Source: Clostridia bacterium
GTDB taxonomy: Bacteria > Bacillota > DSM-521 > Neomoorellales > Neomoorellaceae
Assembly (NCBI GenBank): GCA_030445865.1
Contig: JASUSV010000016.1
Location: 1 to 34,200 of the forward strand
Direction: 5' to 3'
Length of the DNA stretch: 34,200 nucleotides
Positions 24,051 to 33,785 of this stretch are shown here, one piece after another. Numbering within the stretch: position 1 is the first letter of the stretch; every line of letters begins with the position of its first letter. The notes under the pieces were generated by a model. That model saw only the letters and a list, made by a program, of their open reading frames with translations, did no database searches and was not told the origin of the DNA. Both the position numbers and the translations under genes were made by a program.

Positions 24051-24263
24051 TTAAAAATCGAGAAAATGGCCGCCGCGAAAATCTGCGGCGGGCGGGACAA
24101 CGCCAGCCGTGGTTACCTTGGTAACTTCAACCCTGCCTTGCTCGTCAATCTCTATCTTAACATAGTCACCTCCTTTCCACCCGAGTCCAGCAAGAACCTC
24201 TGGTGGTAACTGAACCCTTCCGTTATGCCCGAGTCGCGTCAGGTGTACTCTCCTACCCACCAA
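24051..24263 (-). CDS. Small SpoVT/AbrB-like protein
   Basis: Protein of 70 residues. Residues about 8-50 match the swapped-hairpin AbrB fold: LGHNGRVQLPPEVLAGLGWKGGD followed by VKIEIDEQGRVEVTKV. This domain occurs in transition-state regulators and in antitoxins; the C-terminal tail PPAADFRGGHFLDF is unassigned. The start is TTG at 24263 with AAGGAGG 7 nt upstream; the next codon is GTG. It begins 13 nt after the Hpt gene and precedes the terminator, so it is the last operon gene. No toxin gene is adjacent, so a regulatory role is more likely than an antitoxin, but this is not proven. Confidence 0.75.
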   Translation of the reverse strand: MVGRRVHLTRLGHNGRVQLPPEVLAGLGWKGGDYVKIEIDEQGRVEVTKVTTAGVVPPAADFRGGHFLDF

Positions 24264-24276
24264 ACAAAAGCCTCCT

Positions 24277-25161
24277 TCAACCCGCTTCCTTCATTGTCAT
24301 CCGGCTAAGCACCCTGCAAGTGAGGTCGTCTCTTGAATGTAAGAGCCATCCGTGCCGCAGGGCTTCTCCAATAAACCTCAAGGCATTAACGTCAAGCTTC
24401 ACCGCACCGGGCATGAAGTCAAGGGCAATATGTTTTCCCTCGGATTCCAGCGCGTCCCCGTATTCTTTATATCTCTCCCAATCGGCATCCCGGATTTGCA
24501 GCATATACCTAACGTCAACATCTGTCACGTCCGGATAGCCCGCCAGGCGCTCATACACTTCTCGACCCTCGATTTCACTCTCTAAGACCACCGTCATGGC
24601 GTCTGGGAGCACTCTTCCGCACATCAGTTCACCCTCTGAAGGCCGGGCAAACTCCAGCCTACCTATCTCTTCTAGCCGCTTCAGTATAACGAACGCCCTA
24701 GCCGCGCGCATTTCTGAAGAGTTGTCCAGCGTGACCCGTACGAACAACTTCACGCACGGTTTATCGTTTTTCGCAGGACTGGAACCGCCTCCCGAGGCGC
24801 GCTCAAGCTCGCTGACTACCTTGTTATACTCCGGGGGAGCGCAATTCGCGATCCCTTCCTCAACGCCGCGTATTAGCGCCCGCAGCACATCCCCCGACTG
24901 CAGCAAGAGGCTGCAAATGCCCTGGCTTACCAGTACTTCCCCTTTCCGGATAGCATCCAGCAAATTCTCCATCTTATGGGCAAACTCCGCTACATCTTTA
25001 AGCCCTACACAAGCCGCCGAACCTTTGAGGGTGTGGGCAATCCTGAAAACCGCGTCAATAGCCCCCCTATCGTTCCACTCCAGTTTTAAAAGTAGCTGTT
25101 CCAACATATCCAGTTGCTCATGGGCTTCATTTAAAAACTCACGCATTAAGTCCACCGCCAT
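24277..25161 (-). CDS. Stand-alone CheA P1-P2 protein (Hpt phosphotransfer)
   Basis: 294 residues corresponding to the N-terminal part of a CheA. Residues 1-105 are an Hpt/P1 domain with the phospho-acceptor His43 in AHTLKGSA. A linker follows, then about 136-220 resembles the CheA P2 CheY-docking domain (VKLFVRVTLDNSSEMRAARAFVILKRLEEIG and VVLESEIEG). Residues 221-294 are an extra tail of unknown function. No dimerisation, ATPase or CheW-like domain is present. The gene lies 5 nt after the kinase gene that supplies P3-P4-P5. The likely role is to accept phosphate in trans from that kinase and pass it to CheY and CheB. The ribosome site is weak, suggesting coupling to the kinase gene. Confidence 0.88.
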   Translation of the reverse strand: MAVDLMREFLNEAHEQLDMLEQLLLKLEWNDRGAIDAVFRIAHTLKGSAACVGLKDVAEFAHKMENLLDAIRKGEVLVSQGICSLLLQSGDVLRALIRGVEEGIANCAPPEYNKVVSELERASGGGSSPAKNDKPCVKLFVRVTLDNSSEMRAARAFVILKRLEEIGRLEFARPSEGELMCGRVLPDAMTVVLESEIEGREVYERLAGYPDVTDVDVRYMLQIRDADWERYKEYGDALESEGKHIALDFMPGAVKLDVNALRFIGEALRHGWLLHSRDDLTCRVLSRMTMKEAG

Positions 25162-25166
25162 AGAGA

Positions 25167-26600
25167 TTACACCATCCTTCCGACCACACCGGAATCTAAA
25201 ATCAAAGCAATGTCCCCGTTCCCCAGCACCGCCGCGCCGGTAAACAACTTCAAATGGGACAGTTGGGGCGGGAGATTCTTCAACACTACGTCTTGTTCAC
25301 CCAAAACCTTCGGCACGGCTACCGCGACACCGGCCAAGAGGACTATAAGTGTAAGCTCATCACTTTCTACCCCCTCTGCACTGGTGTCGAGCAGGCGGGA
25401 AAGCCGGACAACGGGGTATACGGTCTCCCGCAGGGCCACTACTTCAATATCCTTTAAAGAGTGCGGCCTGTACGCCTCCACTTTTACTATCTCTTTGACC
25501 TCCCCTACCGGGATTCCGTACAGACCACCACACTCCAAGAGCACAACCTTGGTTATGCTCATCGAGATAGGCAGTTCCAGGGCTACCTCTGTCCCTGCCC
25601 CCTGCTCGCTGTGCAACATTACCTTCCCACCTAGCCGCTCGACCGTTTCACGTACCACATCCATACCTACGCCCCGGCCGGACACTTGGCTGGCCTCCTC
25701 CCTGGTGCTGAACCCAGGTATAAATATGAGCTGCAACGCTTCCTCAAAGCCCATCCTGTCTGCCTGTTCCTGGGTAATTAACCCCCCACCAACGGCTTTG
25801 CGCTTGACTGCCTCAGCATCAATCCCCGCGCCGTCGTCCTTCACTGTGATAACCACCCGCTCTCCTCTCCGCTCGGCCTTCAGCAGCAGTTCTCCCTCTT
25901 CCGGCTTTCCGGACCGTATCCTCTCTTCCGGCCCTTCTAAACCGTGGTCGAGAGCATTGCGGACCAGGTGCAGCAAAGGCTCGTAGAGGGTAGCGGCTAC
26001 ATTGCGATCTATTGTGACCTCCTCGCCGGATACTTTAAACTGCACCTTTTTCCCCAGCTCCTGTCCCAGTTCACGGATTACTCGTCGGAACCGCTCAAAG
26101 ACAAAACCTATCGGCATAAGCCGCATTTCCATGATTATATCCTGAATTCCCCAGCTCATCCGGCTAAGCGACGCCTGGTATTCTTTAAACTGCCTTAGTA
26201 TCTCCACCGGCAACCCCACTTCTTCCAGACGTCTTAACAGGTGAGTGATTCCGTTCGTGGTAACTATAAGCTCGCCCGTCAAAGCCAGGAGCTTGTCGAT
26301 TTTGCTCTGCTCCACCCTGACTGTCTGGGTGTCTCCCATCTCCCGTCCCGCATCGCGCGCTGTACGGGAAGCATCACCTAAAACCGATTTGCCCTGCAGA
26401 TAGTCCTCGACTAGCTGCCGGGAAGGCGCTACATATTCTTCAGACCTGACCTCGATTTCAAGGCCGTAGTCTCCCCCGTAATCCAGAATACTTACCTGAG
26501 CAAGCCACCCTTTTTCTTCCATTTCCCTCAACAAAGGCCACGCATCGCGGCCCGCCAGCTCCTGAGCCGTTATCCTTAAAGTCTTGGGCCCCTTTTCCAT
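25167..26600 (-). CDS. cheA: CheA kinase lacking P1 (P3-P4-P5)
   Basis: Chemotaxis-type histidine kinase core, 477 residues. Residues 95-155 are the P3 dimerisation helices. P4 ATPase spans about 160-345 with N box HLVRNALDHGLE (211-222), G1 DDGAGID (255-261), F-box region FIPGFSTREEA and G2 GRGVGMDVV. P5, the CheW-like receptor-coupling domain, spans 346-477. There is no Hpt domain; the substrate His is on the next gene. The first 75 residues form an unassigned alpha/beta segment. The start is ATG at 26600 with GGGGGAG 6 nt upstream, one base after the CheY stop; a longer frame to 26639 lies inside cheY. Confidence 0.93.
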   Translation of the reverse strand: MEKGPKTLRITAQELAGRDAWPLLREMEEKGWLAQVSILDYGGDYGLEIEVRSEEYVAPSRQLVEDYLQGKSVLGDASRTARDAGREMGDTQTVRVEQSKIDKLLALTGELIVTTNGITHLLRRLEEVGLPVEILRQFKEYQASLSRMSWGIQDIIMEMRLMPIGFVFERFRRVIRELGQELGKKVQFKVSGEEVTIDRNVAATLYEPLLHLVRNALDHGLEGPEERIRSGKPEEGELLLKAERRGERVVITVKDDGAGIDAEAVKRKAVGGGLITQEQADRMGFEEALQLIFIPGFSTREEASQVSGRGVGMDVVRETVERLGGKVMLHSEQGAGTEVALELPISMSITKVVLLECGGLYGIPVGEVKEIVKVEAYRPHSLKDIEVVALRETVYPVVRLSRLLDTSAEGVESDELTLIVLLAGVAVAVPKVLGEQDVVLKNLPPQLSHLKLFTGAAVLGNGDIALILDSGVVGRMV

Positions 26601-26601
26601 A

Positions 26602-26997
26602 CTACGCTCCCCCGTCGTGGTTGCTCCCACCTTTTGCACGACTAAACATTACACATACCCTTTCCAGTTCTTCCGGCCTGACCGGCTTGACCAGGTAAAG
26701 ATCAGCTCCGGCTTTGTACGCCTGAAACCTGTCATTAGAGCCTGCTTCCGTAGAGACCACGACAATTCCCACTTTCTTGCCCCGCTCGTTCTTCCGGATC
26801 TCTCGCACCAGGTCGTAGCCGTGCATCCTCGGCATATTAATATCTACCAGCACCAAGTCGTAATCAACCGCACAAAACTTCTCCAACCCTTCGTACCCGT
26901 TGTCCGCAAGGTCAACTTGGTGGCCCTGCCCTAACAGAATGCTGGCATGGTACGCCCGCACAGCGCTGGAGTCGTCCACAATAAGCACACGGGCCAT
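26602..26997 (-). CDS. cheY: CheY-like single-domain response regulator
   Basis: 131-residue receiver domain without an output domain. The acidic pair Asp8-Asp9, the phospho-acceptor Asp52 in LVDINMP, the switch Ser82 (usual Thr/Ser position) and Lys104 in VKP are all present, so it should be phosphorylated. The partner is presumably the adjacent P1-P2 protein. The start is ATG with GGAGG only 4 nt upstream. It ends in a short Gly/Asn/Asp-rich tail. Whether it acts on a flagellar switch or another target cannot be told, as no target gene is in the window. Confidence 0.92.
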   Translation of the reverse strand: MARVLIVDDSSAVRAYHASILLGQGHQVDLADNGYEGLEKFCAVDYDLVLVDINMPRMHGYDLVREIRKNERGKKVGIVVVSTEAGSNDRFQAYKAGADLYLVKPVRPEELERVCVMFSRAKGGSNHDGGA

Positions 26998-27024: not shown

Positions 27025-27828
27025 TCACTTTTTGTAAATTATAGCGTTTTTAAACCGCACAGGCTTAAATACTGTAGTTATCCGGCTCATCGACTCCGAA
27101 TGGCCCAAGAACACGTATCCCCCAGGCTCTAGTGCCTGGTAGAAGTGCAGCGCGACCCGCCGGCGCGAAAGGTCGTCAAAATATATCAGGACATTGCGGC
27201 AAAATATGGCGTGGAAGCCCCTTATGTTCCGCATGGCAGCGTCGTCCACCAGGTTTAACTGGTAGAACCTTATCTTCCGTTTCAACAGGGAAGAAATAGC
27301 GTAATTATCCCCCAGAGGGGTAAAGTATCGCTTGAAATAGACTTCAGGCACCTGGCGGACGGCATAGTGATTATAAATGCCCTTCTCGGCCTTGTCCAAT
27401 ACTTCTGTATTTATGTCGGTAGCGTGGATCTCCCACTGCACATCCGGCGCCATCTCCTGCATTACGATAGCCAGGGTGTACGCTTCTTCGCCGGATGCGC
27501 ATCCCGCACACCATATCCTGACCCCGCTATGACCTATACCGTTCTGGCACCAGAGAGGAACGACTTCTTCTGCCAAGCACTTCAACTGGTCGTACTCGCG
27601 GAAAAAGTAAGTCTCGTTCACGGTGAGACTGTTCAAGAGCTCCTGGCGCATTCTGCTCGTAGTGTCAAACTTCAGAGCCCCCAGGTACGCCGTGAAGTCT
27701 TTGAACCCGTATTTTTCCATCTGCTGTTCCACGCGCTTTTCTACATAGTAGAGCTTGGTATCCTCAAAGTAGATGCCTGATTCGCGATATATGTATTCCC
27801 GCAGGCGTTCAAACTCTGCCTTCGTCAT
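27025..27828 (-). CDS. cheR: Chemoreceptor glutamate methyltransferase CheR
   Basis: S-adenosylmethionine-dependent methyltransferase that methylates glutamates on chemoreceptors, 267 residues. It has the N-terminal helical domain, NETYFFRE, the SAM motif CAGCASGEEAYT (107-118), ATDINTEVLDKA, FCRNVLIYFD and the closing LGHSESM. The start is ATG with AGGAG 7 nt upstream. It acts on the single MCP of the operon, presumably; that MCP has no C-terminal CheR-tethering pentapeptide. Confidence 0.95.
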   Translation of the reverse strand: MTKAEFERLREYIYRESGIYFEDTKLYYVEKRVEQQMEKYGFKDFTAYLGALKFDTTSRMRQELLNSLTVNETYFFREYDQLKCLAEEVVPLWCQNGIGHSGVRIWCAGCASGEEAYTLAIVMQEMAPDVQWEIHATDINTEVLDKAEKGIYNHYAVRQVPEVYFKRYFTPLGDNYAISSLLKRKIRFYQLNLVDDAAMRNIRGFHAIFCRNVLIYFDDLSRRRVALHFYQALEPGGYVFLGHSESMSRITTVFKPVRFKNAIIYKK

Positions 27829-27849: not shown

Positions 27850-28443
27850 CTAGCTGGCAATTTTATCGAACTCTCCGCGAAGGCGGGCCAGAGCCCTCTG
27901 GACTATAAAGTCAAGGTATGGGTGGCTAAACCTTTCCCTGCACTTCTCCACCAGCTCGGCGTCGCCCGGTTCCCCTATCTCACTTATGTATTCAATCGCA
28001 GCCCCGACTACGTTTATATCTTGGTCCACAGCCGCCGCCTTCCTCAGCAGGCTCAAGGCCCCAGGACACGTGCCCCGGCCCAAAGCGTGGACCGCCATCA
28101 CCCTCACGTCGCGGTCAGCCTCTTGTAAAAGGGCCTCAAAAATGCTCATACACTTCTCATCGCCCTTATACGCCAAAACCTCAAAGGCCATGCTGCGCAG
28201 GGACGCGTCTTCGCTCTTTAAGAGAGGCGCTACCTCCTCAACCACTTCTTCCGTGTCGCATATAAGGAGCGAAGCCACAATAGTTTCCCTTACCATCAGG
28301 TCCGTCTCACGGGCAAAGGCCTGGACCAGGACTTTCGCGGAGCCGGGAGCCCTGAGCGCTGCAATCTTACACACGACATCTACGCGCTCGCCCGCATCCT
28401 CTGTCCTCTCCAATACCTCGGTAAGGGCTGTTAACTCATCCAT
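27850..28443 (-). CDS. HEAT-repeat protein in chemotaxis operon
   Basis: 197-residue all-helical protein made of about five HEAT-like repeats, visible as recurring alanine/leucine helices with DxxVRxxA-type turns (LMVRETIVASL, ASLRSMAFEVLA, RDVRVMAVHALG, INVVGAAIEYI). This fold usually serves as a protein-binding scaffold. There is no catalytic motif. It lies between cheB and cheR, with a one-base gap to cheB and its ribosome site inside the cheB end, so it is an integral operon member. A HEAT-repeat protein is, as I recall, also part of the Myxococcus Che7 system. Its partner is unknown; CheR, CheB or the split kinase are candidates. Confidence 0.8.
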   Translation of the reverse strand: MDELTALTEVLERTEDAGERVDVVCKIAALRAPGSAKVLVQAFARETDLMVRETIVASLLICDTEEVVEEVAPLLKSEDASLRSMAFEVLAYKGDEKCMSIFEALLQEADRDVRVMAVHALGRGTCPGALSLLRKAAAVDQDINVVGAAIEYISEIGEPGDAELVEKCRERFSHPYLDFIVQRALARLRGEFDKIAS

Positions 28444-28444
28444 A

Positions 28445-29494
28445 TTACCTACCTCCTACCTTCCGCCGTATAATGTCCGCTATCTGATAGCTAGGGGCTA
28501 CCACGTCCACGCCCCCGCGTTCTATCGCGGCACGGGGCATGCCCCACACCACCGCCGTCTCCTCGCTCTCGGCTACAGTCCACCCGCCGCGCCTCCTTAA
28601 CTCTACCAACGCATCTGCACCGTCGTCTCCAATTCCTGTAAGGAGGACCCCAATGGTACGCCTGGGGTCGAACGCCTCCATCAAGGCACGCAAGGTTACA
28701 TCTACTGAGGGCCTGAACTCGGCGTCTTCTGGCCTGAGAGAGAGGTGACAGGCGACGGCACTGCCCTGCCGCCTGAACACAAGATGGTAGCCGCCAGGAG
28801 CAATTAGCGCTAGACCATTGCTCAATTTCATCCCCTCCTGGGCCTCACGCACATGAAGCCTGCAGTACTGATCGAGGCGTTGCGCGAGGCTCGCCGTAAA
28901 GCGCGGTGGCATGTGCTGTACTACCACTATGCCGGCAGGCAGATCCCCCGGAAGCTGCGGCAGTATGTCCTCCAGGACCCTGGGGCCCCCCGTGGATACA
29001 CCTATCATTACTACCCAGTTTAAGTCCGAGACGGCCACCAGGACCCGTTTTTCCACGCGGAGAACCCTTCTCCCAGGCGCTCTCCTCCGCACCCGCGCCC
29101 TGGCCGCCGCCCGCACCTTGCGTATGATCTCATCCGCAAGCCTGTTTATACCCAGCGAGATGGTGCCGTCCGGTTTGGCTACAAAGTCCACCGCCCCAAG
29201 CTCAAGTGCCTCAAACGTTATGAGCGCGTCCTCCTGGGTCAACGACGAAATCATGACTACTTTTGCGGTGGTCTTCGATGTTATATGCTGCAGGGCCGTG
29301 AGGCCGTCCATGCGGGGCATGTTGATATCCAGGGTCACCACGTCGGGCTGGAGGGCGATGGCCTTCTCCGCACCCTCCAGCCCATCCCGTGCCACATCCA
29401 CTACTTCGATATCAGGTGCTCTTTCCAATATTTGCTTTATGGCTCTCCGCATGAACGCCGAATCATCCACTACCAGCACCCGTATAGACTTCAT
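28445..29494 (-). CDS. cheB: Protein-glutamate methylesterase/deamidase CheB
   Basis: 349 residues. An N-terminal receiver with Asp10/Asp11, phospho-acceptor Asp56 and Lys at VAKPDG is followed by an Arg-rich linker and the methylesterase domain. Its catalytic residues are visible: Ser167 in GVSTGGP, His194 in VVQHMP, and Asp291 in TGIGDDGAD. It removes methyl groups from receptor glutamates when phosphorylated and may deamidate glutamines. The ATG overlaps the stop of the triple-CheW gene by 4 nt (ATGA), so they are translationally coupled. Confidence 0.95.
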   Translation of the reverse strand: MKSIRVLVVDDSAFMRRAIKQILERAPDIEVVDVARDGLEGAEKAIALQPDVVTLDINMPRMDGLTALQHITSKTTAKVVMISSLTQEDALITFEALELGAVDFVAKPDGTISLGINRLADEIIRKVRAAARARVRRRAPGRRVLRVEKRVLVAVSDLNWVVMIGVSTGGPRVLEDILPQLPGDLPAGIVVVQHMPPRFTASLAQRLDQYCRLHVREAQEGMKLSNGLALIAPGGYHLVFRRQGSAVACHLSLRPEDAEFRPSVDVTLRALMEAFDPRRTIGVLLTGIGDDGADALVELRRRGGWTVAESEETAVVWGMPRAAIERGGVDVVAPSYQIADIIRRKVGGR

Positions 29495-30999
29495 CCGCTG
29501 ATATCCGTCTCCTCCGTTGCTTCCATAGGCCCGACTCCCTCTTCCCAGGACAGCACGCGCCCCGGGTCCAAAAGTATTACGTTACGCTCGCTGCTAAACT
29601 TGGCTATCCCTGCCACGAAAGACTGGATCCTGTCCTTCACCAAAACTTGTGGAGTAGCTTCAATGCTGCTCACACTGATCTTCGCTACTTCCTTTACGCC
29701 GTCAACCATGAGACCCATCACTGAAGCATCCCCTTCGCAGATTAAGATTCGCACTTGTTCATCCATTTCTCTCTCGGGATAGCCGAATTTGCACCGCAAG
29801 TCGATAATCGGAACTATGCTCCCTCGAAGGTTCAATATCCCCTTCACGAAGTCAGGCGTCCTAGGTACGGCGGTTATGCGTCCCACGCGAATTATCTCGC
29901 GCACACTGTCTATAGGCAGGGCAAACTCTTCCTCACCCAAGATGAAAGTCACAAGTTGCCGCTCCTCTTCCAGTACCCTCCGGCTCCCAACACTGACTTC
30001 CTCTGCCTCACCCTGTTCCCACTCCGTAAGAAACGAAACGTCCCGCAACAGTTTGGAGGCGTCAAGCACAAATAACATACGCTCGTCAGATAGGCGACAT
30101 ATGGCGGTAAACTCGTCTCCGGCACGCCGCACTACCACAGGCACCGGCTCCAAGAGCCGCTCCGCCACCCTCAGAACCTCAGCTACGCTGTCCACTACAA
30201 GTCCAACCGCTACTCTCTTGCCTTCCCCCACGTAGACCACTACTATCCTACCGCCAGCAACCTCGCCCTCAGGAAGGCCGAAAAGCCTCCTCATACTGAT
30301 AAGAGGTAAAACCCTGTCCCGTAACGACACCAATCCCAGTACGTAAGGAGGAGCATCAGGCACTGCATTCCAGCTTTCCGGCAAATGCACTATTTCTTGA
30401 ACACCAGCGATGTCCAAAGCATACTCCTCTTTCCCTACTCGGAAGGTCAAAAGTTGTTGCTCGTTCTCCTGGGCCCTGCTTTCTTCTTCTCCCGCACCAC
30501 GGTTCTCGTACTCTTTAGTGTCGTTAAGGAAAGCAAGCTTGCTGTCGTTTAAACCCAGGTCTTTAAGCATCTGATCCATCTCTATAAGAAGCACAAGCTT
30601 GCCCTCGCCCACACGTGCTGCCTTGGTTACGTAACCTTCGGTATCACCTTTTTCCCGGAATTCATCTACGGCTTCTCTTGGGATATCTACAACGCCGTCT
30701 ACCCGGTCCACTACATACCCCGCCTGCTTCCCTCCAGCATTGGCCACTATCACCCGGTTGCTCTCGTCATCATCCGTACCGCTTATACCTAACCGTAAGC
30801 GGGTGTCATAAATCGGGAGAATGTTGCCCCTGAGGTTGGCGAGCCCCCGCATGTACGGGGGCATCAGGGGCACCTTTACTACGTAAGGAACTCGAATAAT
30901 CTCCTGGAGGTACTCTATGGCTATGCCGAAGCTTTCCTGGCCCAAACGAAACACCACGTATTGATCAAGGCTTGCAACCGAACCACCGGCTACTGCCAT
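29491..30999 (-). CDS. Triple CheW-domain coupling protein
   Basis: 502 residues made of three complete CheW domains at about 11-150, 180-322 and 345-486, joined by short acidic Glu-rich linkers. Each has the conserved receptor/kinase-contact segment: RGLANLRGNILPIYD, LGLVSLRDRVLPLIS and KGILNLRGSIVPIID. A normal CheW is about 150 residues, so this is a threefold fusion. It should couple the MCP to the kinase P5 and could set the geometry of an array. The copies are clearly divergent in sequence, so the fusion is not recent. The start is ATG with GAGGAGG upstream, 30 nt after mcp. Confidence 0.92.
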   Translation of the reverse strand: MAVAGGSVASLDQYVVFRLGQESFGIAIEYLQEIIRVPYVVKVPLMPPYMRGLANLRGNILPIYDTRLRLGISGTDDDESNRVIVANAGGKQAGYVVDRVDGVVDIPREAVDEFREKGDTEGYVTKAARVGEGKLVLLIEMDQMLKDLGLNDSKLAFLNDTKEYENRGAGEEESRAQENEQQLLTFRVGKEEYALDIAGVQEIVHLPESWNAVPDAPPYVLGLVSLRDRVLPLISMRRLFGLPEGEVAGGRIVVVYVGEGKRVAVGLVVDSVAEVLRVAERLLEPVPVVVRRAGDEFTAICRLSDERMLFVLDASKLLRDVSFLTEWEQGEAEEVSVGSRRVLEEERQLVTFILGEEEFALPIDSVREIIRVGRITAVPRTPDFVKGILNLRGSIVPIIDLRCKFGYPEREMDEQVRILICEGDASVMGLMVDGVKEVAKISVSSIEATPQVLVKDRIQSFVAGIAKFSSERNVILLDPGRVLSWEEGVGPMEATEETDISG

Positions 31000-31029: not shown

Positions 31030-32973
31030 TTAGCCCTGCTGGAGTTCGTCCGCCAGGGCCGCAATCTCCTCGATAGCCTGGGCAAGCTCCTTCATGCCTT
31101 CGGCCTGCTGGCGGCTGGCCGCGGCCGCTTCTTCTGCCGCCTTGCTGGCTTCCTGGGCAGACGTCGCTATCTGCTCTACTCCTTTAGTTGCCTCTTCCAC
31201 CCTTAGAAGGCTTTCGTCTGCCTGCCTTTTAACTGCTTGCACCCCTTCAAGGACCACTCGCATGTCGGCCTCGATAATATCAAGGTCGGCCGTCGTCTTT
31301 TTGGCCTTTTCCGCTTCTTTCTGAACTACTTCTCCAATACTGGTAATGTCGCGGAGAACGTTCATGACTTGCTCCTGGATACCCTTTACCATTTCCTTGA
31401 TCTGTTCAGCGTTGCGGGCGCTCTCTTGGGCAAGGTTCCGGATGTCCGACGCCACTACCGCGAACCCCTTCCCGTACTCGCCCGCCCGGGCCGCCTCTAT
31501 GGCGCCGCTTACCGCCAGCATATTAGTCTGGATGCTCACGCTCGCAATAGTATCCACTATCTTATCGATCATGCGGGCGTTCCGCTCAAGCTGGTTGACC
31601 TTTTGGGCATTCTCGAGGTTAACCGCCGCTGCACGCCTGATACCTTCGATAAGCTCATTTGCCCTCGCTTTGTTGGCAGCCAGCAGGTCGCTTAGTTCCT
31701 GGGTCGCCGTCCTGGACTCTTCGGCTTCCTTCGCAATTACCCCCATCGATTTTTCAATCTGCTTGATGGCGCTGGAAGCTTCTTCGGACGCTGAAGCCTG
31801 CTGCTCTGCCGATTTCGCAATTTGATTTAGGGCCGCGTTGATCTCTTCTGCCGAACGGCTGGCCTCCTCAATGGCCGAGGATAGCTCTTCCGCCGCTGCC
31901 GCCAGACTCTCTGCAGATTTGACCACATCAGTCGAGTGCTTGAGTTCATCAGCCAGGTCTGCTAAATTATTACTGCTGCTACTTACCTCGGCCAGCGCCC
32001 GGGCCTGTTGTTCAACCCCCTGCAAGGCCTGCTCGGTGGCGCTGGCCTGCTCCTCAGCTGTGGCCGCTATCTGCTCGCTGCCCTTCTGGAACTCGGCTAC
32101 CGCTTTTTCTACTTCAGTGATAAGCTGCTCAATTCTGGCGGCTCCCTCCACTACATTGGCTATGGAAGCAGCTATCTTCTTAAGCTCCTCAGTGATAACC
32201 TTGCCCTTTTCCGTCTCGCCCCTGGCTACCTCAGCCGCCTTGTTGATGGCTTCGGCCACCATTCGTACGTCTTCCTGCACGCTGTCTACTATCTTTCGTA
32301 TGTCGCTGGCCGCCTTCTCGGAAGTTTCCGCTAGAGTCCTCACTTCGTCCGCCACCACAGCAAACCCGCGGCCGTGCTCCCCAGCCCGCGCCGCCTCAAT
32401 CGCAGCGTTCAAGGCCAGGAGGTTTGTCTGGTCGGCTATCCTCACCACGGTCCGCACGATCTCGCCGATCTTGGACGCCTCTTCTTCCAGCTGCGCTACC
32501 AGCCTGGCTGACTCCTCGCTCCTGGCTGCACTGGCGTCTACCCCTTGTATCAGAACCTCAATATCGTCACTCGTGCGGCCTACAAGGCCCCTGATGGCTT
32601 CGCAGCGGGCCAGCGACTCCCGGGCCTGCTTCACCGAAGCTCTCGCAGCTTCGCCAATAACCCGAATGGCGGCCAGGGACTGCTGGGTAGCTCCGCTGGC
32701 CTCCTGCGCCCCGCTAGCTATCTGCTCCATGGCGGTGCGCAATTCCTGTACTGCACTGGAGGCCTGCTCCACGCCAGAGGAGAGCTCCTCCGTCGCACTG
32801 GCTATCCGCTCGGCTATCTGCTGCTGCTTCGCAAAGGTACGCGCTTGCCGCCGGCGCGCCTCCATTTCCTTCTTGTCACCTTCTCTGACCACGCCGGCCT
32901 TGGCGGTCTCGCTGTACACCCCCCGGGCGCCAGTCGGTAAAGGTTCCAGCGTCTTAGCAGGATTGGTGGGCAT
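31030..32973 (-). CDS. Soluble chemoreceptor with two tandem signalling domains
   Basis: 647-residue methyl-accepting chemotaxis protein, almost entirely coiled coil, with no membrane segment, PAS, GAF, Cache or HAMP domain visible. Two hairpin tips are present: [21 protein letters not shown] (about 179-199) and [21 protein letters not shown] (479-499). Flanking segments also repeat exactly 300 residues apart (EELSS at 62 and 362; EQIA at 300 and 600), so the whole signalling unit is duplicated without indels. The first 50 residues are basic and unstructured-looking. The start is ATG at 32973 with AAGGAGG 10 nt upstream; a TTG at 32982 is too close to that site. It should feed the triple CheW and split kinase. 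Confidence 0.93.
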
Positions 32974-33030
32974 AATTATCAAGCCTCCTTGAGTTTTAAA
33001 TTAAGTTTTAAAATCTTATTTTACCCAAAA

Positions 33031-33624
33031 TTAGAAAGAGCGAATTAAGTCAAATTTTTGGTTCGCTATTACTTTGAGCAAGTAACCCGCAATCTCAGCG
33101 TCCAACTTCCCCTTGTAAGCCTCCTCCATGACGATATCCAGGGCTTTCCTTACCGGCAGCGCCCCGCGATAGGGCCGAGGACTTACTAGAGCAGAAAATA
33201 CATCGGCCACTGCTATTAAACGACCGCCTGCGCTTAATCCCTCCCCCGTGAGCCCCCGCGGGTACCCGCTGCCGTCCAACCTCTCATGGTGTTGCTCGCA
33301 CGCCTCGATAATAGCAGGGTGGTAACGGTAATACTTTAATATCTGGCCAGTGTACGTAACATGTGCCTCCATAGCCCGGCGCTCGGCAGGCGTAAACACC
33401 TTCCTGCTCATCAAGACGCTCCGCGGTATGTACATCTTGCCTATGTCGTGGAGCAACCCGGCCTCGTAAAGCCACCCGTACCCGCCCCCAAAACCAATCT
33501 CCGCACATAACCGCCAGACTAGCTCCGCCACCGCAAAGCTGTGGGTAGCAGTTACACGGTCTACCGCCTCTAACTGTTGCATAAGATAATTTGTAGTCCT
33601 CGATGGTGTCGCGCCGGAAACCAT
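33031..33624 (-). CDS. HD-GYP domain phosphodiesterase
   Basis: 197-residue stand-alone HD-GYP protein, predicted to hydrolyse c-di-GMP or a related dinucleotide. Metal-ligand and signature residues are present: His28, HDIGK at 59-63, His88, HHERLDGSGYP at 112-122 and the ADVFSAL motif. There is no sensor or receiver domain, so regulation must come through partners or expression. The start is ATG at 33624 with AAGGAG 9 nt upstream; a TTG at 33645 precedes that site. It heads the chemotaxis-type operon, 57 nt before mcp. Confidence 0.9.
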   Translation of the reverse strand: MVSGATPSRTTNYLMQQLEAVDRVTATHSFAVAELVWRLCAEIGFGGGYGWLYEAGLLHDIGKMYIPRSVLMSRKVFTPAERRAMEAHVTYTGQILKYYRYHPAIIEACEQHHERLDGSGYPRGLTGEGLSAGGRLIAVADVFSALVSPRPYRGALPVRKALDIVMEEAYKGKLDAEIAGYLLKVIANQKFDLIRSF

Positions 33625-33785
33625 ATTTTGCCTCTCCTTATACAAGAACCCTTGGGCTTAGCCCTGAGCCCTTGTGGCGTCAGCGCTTAATAACACGCGT
33701 AGAAAAAACCTCGCTTATTCTCCACCCATGGCATTTTCGCCCCTATCTGTCTCCGCGATGCCCTGCCCCACGAAAATACCAGACT

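Follow-up and report, generated by a model that had tools for sequence, protein, structure and literature searches.

The stretch of DNA analysed here (the window) is a complete 34.2-kb contig (C48) of the draft genome G000, which belongs to the Moorella family. Its minus strand carries a tight chemosensory operon of eight genes, with spacings that range from a slight overlap to about 31 bases. Using Pfam, the genes were found to encode, in operon order, a receptor-like protein (31030-32982), a triple-CheW protein (29491-30999), CheB (28445-29494), a HEAT-repeat protein (27850-28443), CheR (27025-27828), CheY (26602-26997), a CheA kinase devoid of P1 (25167-26600), and a separate Hpt-P2 protein (24277-25161). 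The receptor-like protein displays MCP signalling stretches across much of its length, and Pfam finds no sensory domain in it. The receiver residues of CheY (D8, D9, D52, T83, and K104) are intact. Upstream of the operon, on the same strand, lies a gene for an HD-GYP-type phosphodiesterase (33031-33645; HD_5, E = 2e-31; NCBIfam), and a similar HD gene adjoins several of the related operons; this neighbour is no more than a hint at cyclic-di-GMP. Directly after the Hpt-P2 gene there is a 70-aa ORF (24051-24263, minus strand) which by eye has the look of an AbrB/MazE-type DNA-binding protein. Elsewhere, the genome contains flagellin genes and a conventional CheA (contig C60).

The kinase and Hpt-P2 genes occupy 24277-26600, as an earlier reading of this DNA made from the sequence only had placed them. 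The kinase gene starts at an ATG adjoining the cheY stop and runs from 26600 to 25167, encoding 477 aa. Pfam identifies the P3 dimerisation domain (H-kinase_dim, PF02895, 26124-26327, E = 2e-11), the P4 ATP-binding domain (HATPase_c, PF02518, 25566-25988, E = 3e-18), and the CheW-like P5 domain (PF01584, 25194-25529, E = 1e-14) on this chain, and neither Hpt, P2, nor Response_reg. Residues 91-472 align end to end with the P3-P5 crystal construct of T. maritima CheA (phmmer against the PDB, E = 5e-84), and the N, G1, F, and G2 boxes fall in invariant columns of the orthologue alignment. P3, P4, and P5 are consequently found together on the kinase chain and P1/Hpt is not, which confirms what had been read from the letters. 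The chain begins with an extra module (aa 1-75; 26376-26600), predicted by AlphaFold2 to form a ferredoxin-like beta-alpha-beta-beta-alpha fold (pLDDT block means of 84-92 for aa 11-70). According to the alignment it is kept in all eight kinases of the clade described below, and it gives no Pfam match and no significant PDB match using Foldseek. It was also considered as a remnant of P1, P2, or the linker of a fused CheA; this was rejected, as hhalign detected no similarity and Foldseek gave no match below 0.001.

The separate Hpt-P2 protein has 294 aa. Pfam places a P1/Hpt domain (PF01627, 24886-25152) at residues 4-92 (E = 3e-19) and a P2 response-regulator-binding domain (PF07194, 24508-24741) at residues 141-218 (E = 6e-12), and finds no CheW, H-kinase_dim, HATPase, or Response_reg domain. 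His43 (codon 25033-25035), Lys46, His62, and Glu65 align with His48, Lys51, His67, and Glu70 in the P1 of E. coli CheA, and all four are invariant in the 12 standalone Hpt-P2 proteins compared. The AlphaFold2 model has a mean pLDDT of 84, and Foldseek matches it to the P1 of Salmonella CheA (TM 0.87) and to T. maritima P2 (1u0s; TM 0.86). The sequence-only reading was right about the Hpt domain with His43, the P2 domain, and the lack of a P5 domain. Its statement that the protein holds nothing else does not stand, since a C-terminal alpha/beta tail of about 75 aa is predicted beyond P2 (residues ~219-294; 24280-24507), mostly with good confidence, and the kinase has an additional module as well. 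The predicted topology of the tail is compatible with a STAS domain, and no STAS profile match above the cut-off was obtained for any of the Hpt-P2 tails. A sub-threshold match to STAS_2 (PF13466) is seen in two homologues from a sister clade only, with E about 0.02 when scanned alone. The tail of the window protein gives no STAS_2 match and no significant Foldseek match, and the idea that the tails of the two clades are one domain was rejected, as hhalign found no similarity between them. For these reasons a STAS-like tail is a suggestion only.

Relatives of the operon were sought with the triple-CheW protein as anchor, to which 40 of 398 genomes of the phylum matched strongly. The adjacent pair, with the kinase gene first, is present in G000, G007, G008, G010 (Moorella mulderi DSM 14980, contig NZ_LTBC01000028.1, of the same family as G000), G012, G014, G055, and G084, which make up the window clade; among the genomes surveyed, the seven carriers other than G000 represent Moorella, another genus of its family, and two other lineages. 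A survey of Moorella-like genomes, proposed together with the original observation, thus recovers the pair in the same order. Across the clade the Hpt-P2 proteins are 48-69% identical to that of the window in the alignment. Four genomes of a sister clade likewise have the two genes side by side with the kinase first, and in a Tepidanaerobacteraceae MAG (L098) a separate Hpt-P2 gene follows a kinase gene cut by the contig end. Since seven other surveyed genomes share the pair and its order, it is not an assembly error; the two-gene arrangement is real and old. Six of the 22 genomes within the class of the window genome carry it, and in a tree of the operon proteins G055 and G084, from the two other lineages, are nested inside the Moorella-family set, so that this patchy distribution perhaps reflects gene transfer or loss.

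Some of the related operons are damaged. In G008 (L063:10872-11898) cheY is absent and the kinase gene contains an in-frame TAA, the Hpt-P2 gene being intact. In G084 (L068:8150-9118) cheY is mostly deleted, and an apparent CheY-like C-terminal remnant lies beside an extended CheR. Judging by eye, the insertion that interrupts the receptor-like gene in G012 (L065:190-4607) carries two transposase-like ORFs. The presence or absence of cheY was read from the reading frames, and the gene is present in the operons of G010 and G014. The stop codon in the G008 kinase and the loss of all or most of cheY in G008 and G084 indicate that the system decays in places.

Most relatives of the operon have an ordinary fused CheA. 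A chain of 773-911 aa with Hpt, P3, P4, and P5 was found in 13 of the neighbourhoods examined, the domain content of ten of these having been determined using Pfam. None of these ten fused CheAs contains the PF07194 type of P2, which is present in the Hpt-P2 proteins and in the conventional CheA of the window genome. A full-length CheA with its own P1 in close relatives had been named as the observation that would speak against a genuine pair. Within the window clade the two genes are separate in every one of the eight members, fused forms being confined to outside clades or to a distant paralogue. One fused CheA (G306, L163:13599-15920) has fallen apart into an Hpt ORF and a kinase ORF that keep the canonical order; as its congener G048 has the fused form, this looks like a frameshift or a stop. 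In G335 (L177:14644-17228) a chemosensory cluster contains a gene for a HisKA-HATPase kinase followed by a separate Hpt-P2 gene. This case was rejected as an instance of the pair, a HisKA kinase with an Hpt-P2 protein being a different arrangement.

The kinases of G133, G240, G167, and G370 have an N-terminal extension of about 380 aa in which Pfam finds no Hpt. Together with the kinase of G350 they form the sister clade, and an alignment of 748 columns (E = 1e-130) shows this set to be colinear with the fused CheAs. In the four kinases the first ~130 residues, taken by themselves, match the P1 of the fused CheAs (hhalign probability 94%, E = 1e-7, against 1.3% for a reversed control), and the column of the phosphorylated histidine reads D, D, K, and K. 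From its sequence, the sister-clade kinase is full length with its own P1 dead. A separate Hpt-P2 gene follows the kinase gene in G133, G240, and G167, while the contig of G370 ends there. In G350 (L071:7019-9334) an in-frame CheY (Response_reg at residues 6-112) replaces the dead P1, and a separate Hpt-P2 gene is next. No pseudo-domains of a former full CheA are found in the window pair itself; the dead P1 is in the sister clade.

A tree of the P3-P5 region recovers the window clade with full support and groups it at 84/75 with the dead-P1 clade, nested among the fused CheAs. Five concatenated operon proteins place the window clade, the dead-P1 clade, and G138 on one side of a branch with support of 93/93, and all the fused relatives fall outside this branch. 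G138 (L166) has the same operon type with no CheA in the stretch read; GGDEF/EAL-like and reverse-transcriptase-like genes come next, as seen by eye. The simplest reading, with moderate support, is that the live P1 was lost once in the common ancestor of the two clades and that the dead part was later deleted in the window lineage. The pair was originally described as one CheA split into two genes. The fused relatives and the dead-P1 clade rather point to a kinase that lost its own P1 beside a separate P1-P2 gene, the P2 type of which is absent from the fused CheAs of this operon. Loss is thus favoured over splitting, and the separate P1-P2 was likely recruited from the front half of a classical CheA and not cut from the operon kinase, as both its P2 type and its BLAST scores favour such an origin. 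The best classical CheA scores 96-143 bits against the Hpt-P2 proteins and the best fused one 70-91, a gap made too wide by the matches to classical CheAs, which also take in P2. A tree of P1 alone fails to distinguish a classical from a fused origin of the standalone P1-P2, and a single clade of the standalone P1s is neither supported nor rejected (p-AU 0.27).

A P1-less CheA and an intact Hpt gene lie in one operon here, as in bipartite CheAs, and the two proteins most likely make up a two-protein CheA. The kinase would dimerise via P3 and be held to the receptor/CheW arrays by P5, and its P4 would phosphorylate His43 of the Hpt-P2 protein in trans. The P2 domain of the latter would bind CheY and CheB of the operon, and P1 would hand the phosphoryl group over to them. 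We infer the phosphotransfer, its direction, and its partners; trans phosphorylation of His43 is expected by homology, and recruitment of CheY fits the intact receiver residues. As to its origin, the gene of a fused CheA in an operon of this kind would have come to lie beside one for a separate P1-P2. The P1 of the fused CheA would then have lost the phosphorylated histidine, a stage that the sister clade still shows, and the dead N-terminal part would finally have been deleted in the window lineage. A more far-reaching version, in which the P1 was replaced in trans by a P1-P2 from a different CheA class, the dead-P1 kinases are living intermediates, and the free P1-P2 is a mobile phospho-carrier able to connect the array with two or more kinases or regulators, appears rather doubtful as a whole.

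Within the explanation by a two-protein CheA it may be asked how the Hpt-P2 protein reaches the kinase. Instead of diffusing, as had been suggested, it may be docked, the tail and/or the N-terminal module of the kinase holding the pair as one CheA in the array; docking or diffusion is here a matter of inference, and docking seems to have slightly less than an even chance. Each of the two proteins has an extra module that is conserved in the window clade, and tethering would compensate for the lost covalent link, but neither module has a significant match, and there is no sign in sequence or fold that they bind each other. It is also conceivable that the Hpt-P2 protein is shared. At least one further CheA-type gene is found in G007, G008, G010, G012, G014, G055, G084, G133, G240, G350, and G167, while in G370, whose operon kinase is truncated where the contig stops, only one was found. 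As conventional or other CheA-type genes coexist with it, the split operon is a second chemosensory system, and the Hpt-P2 protein might depend on, or contribute to, another system. It could then be phosphorylated both by the operon kinase and by a conventional CheA, joining the two systems, which would fit with a P1-P2 nearer to classical CheAs than to the fused CheAs of the operon type. However, its adjacency to one kinase is conserved and the covalent P1 of the conventional CheA would compete, making such a hub improbable.

The damaged operons described above, with the stop in the G008 kinase, the loss of cheY in G008 and G084, and the interrupted receptor gene in G012, would be expected if the kinase and the Hpt protein were coming apart in a decaying, non-functional relic. 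This is very unlikely for the window, where all the catalytic residues are intact, and for a pair that is kept together across lineages with Hpt-P2 identities of 48-69%. Breakage of an ordinary CheA by frameshift does occur, as G306 and its fused congener illustrate, and the halves then keep the canonical order and are divided at a break point. In the window the order is reversed, the genes are separated by five bases, and independent genomes have the same order. A frameshifted CheA was therefore rejected, and it is next to inconceivable that this or a rearrangement in sequencing or assembly has produced the pair. The original statement that the two genes are separate, with the kinase first, in a way that one stop or frameshift cannot explain is borne out by the order in the relatives.

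Two-piece CheAs have been described before. In the account of Rhodobacter (Cereibacter) sphaeroides CheA4 and CheA3, a P1-less P3-P4-P5 kinase phosphorylates in trans the P1 of a partner whose gene belongs to the same operon, and degenerate CheA domains are regarded as fossils of subfunctionalisation (PMC3591291; PMC10782961). As described there, CheA3 retains P5, and its very long middle part contains dead kinase domains, whereas the window partner consists of P1, P2, and a tail without P5, and the fossil, a dead P1, sits in the sister-clade kinase. The split CheA of Synechocystis, Hik36 (PilL-N) and Hik43 (PilL-C), is closer in one respect, as a separate Hpt protein without P5 and a P3-P4-P5-type protein are presented as one kinase with an interaction shown by two-hybrid analysis (PMC7656254). 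According to the same description, the two genes are far apart and belong to a type IV pilus system, and the domain diagram includes a receiver domain, with no PF07194 P2 reported alongside it (PMC7656254). An earlier count gave 11 split CheAs versus 470 complete ones (cited in PMC3591291). Bipartite CheAs with a separate, liberated Hpt gene in the operon were reported as a minority of CheAs by Berry et al. (2023; PMC10782961). Their general arrangement is that of the window pair, and the window family could be among these cases; the passage dealing with them names no species and is silent on the order of the genes, the place of P2, additional modules, and relatives with a dead P1. As first stated, the observation is thus not novel, given Hik36 as a P5-less Hpt precedent and the operon-borne Hpt genes reported in 2023. 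In summed content (P1, PF07194-type P2, P3, P4, and P5) the pair equals the classical CheA that this genome encodes on contig C60, but it differs in having two chains, the kinase gene first, and extra modules, and its kinase core falls in a different clade.

Given these precedents, the window family is a variant of the known two-piece CheAs, and the biochemical surprise is limited. As far as the literature compared shows, what is new is a partner made up of P1 and P2, a gene order that puts the kinase first, the additional modules, and a series of intermediates in which dead-P1 kinases occur. In this series there are kinases with a live fused P1, with a dead fused P1 next to a separate P1-P2, with CheY in place of the P1 region, and with P1 deleted, showing how a covalent kinase-substrate unit turns into two proteins. 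Models of split kinases indicate that a change in tethering can alter the response curve (PMC3591291), and the intermediates constitute a natural series for probing what the tethering of P1 gives CheA signalling.
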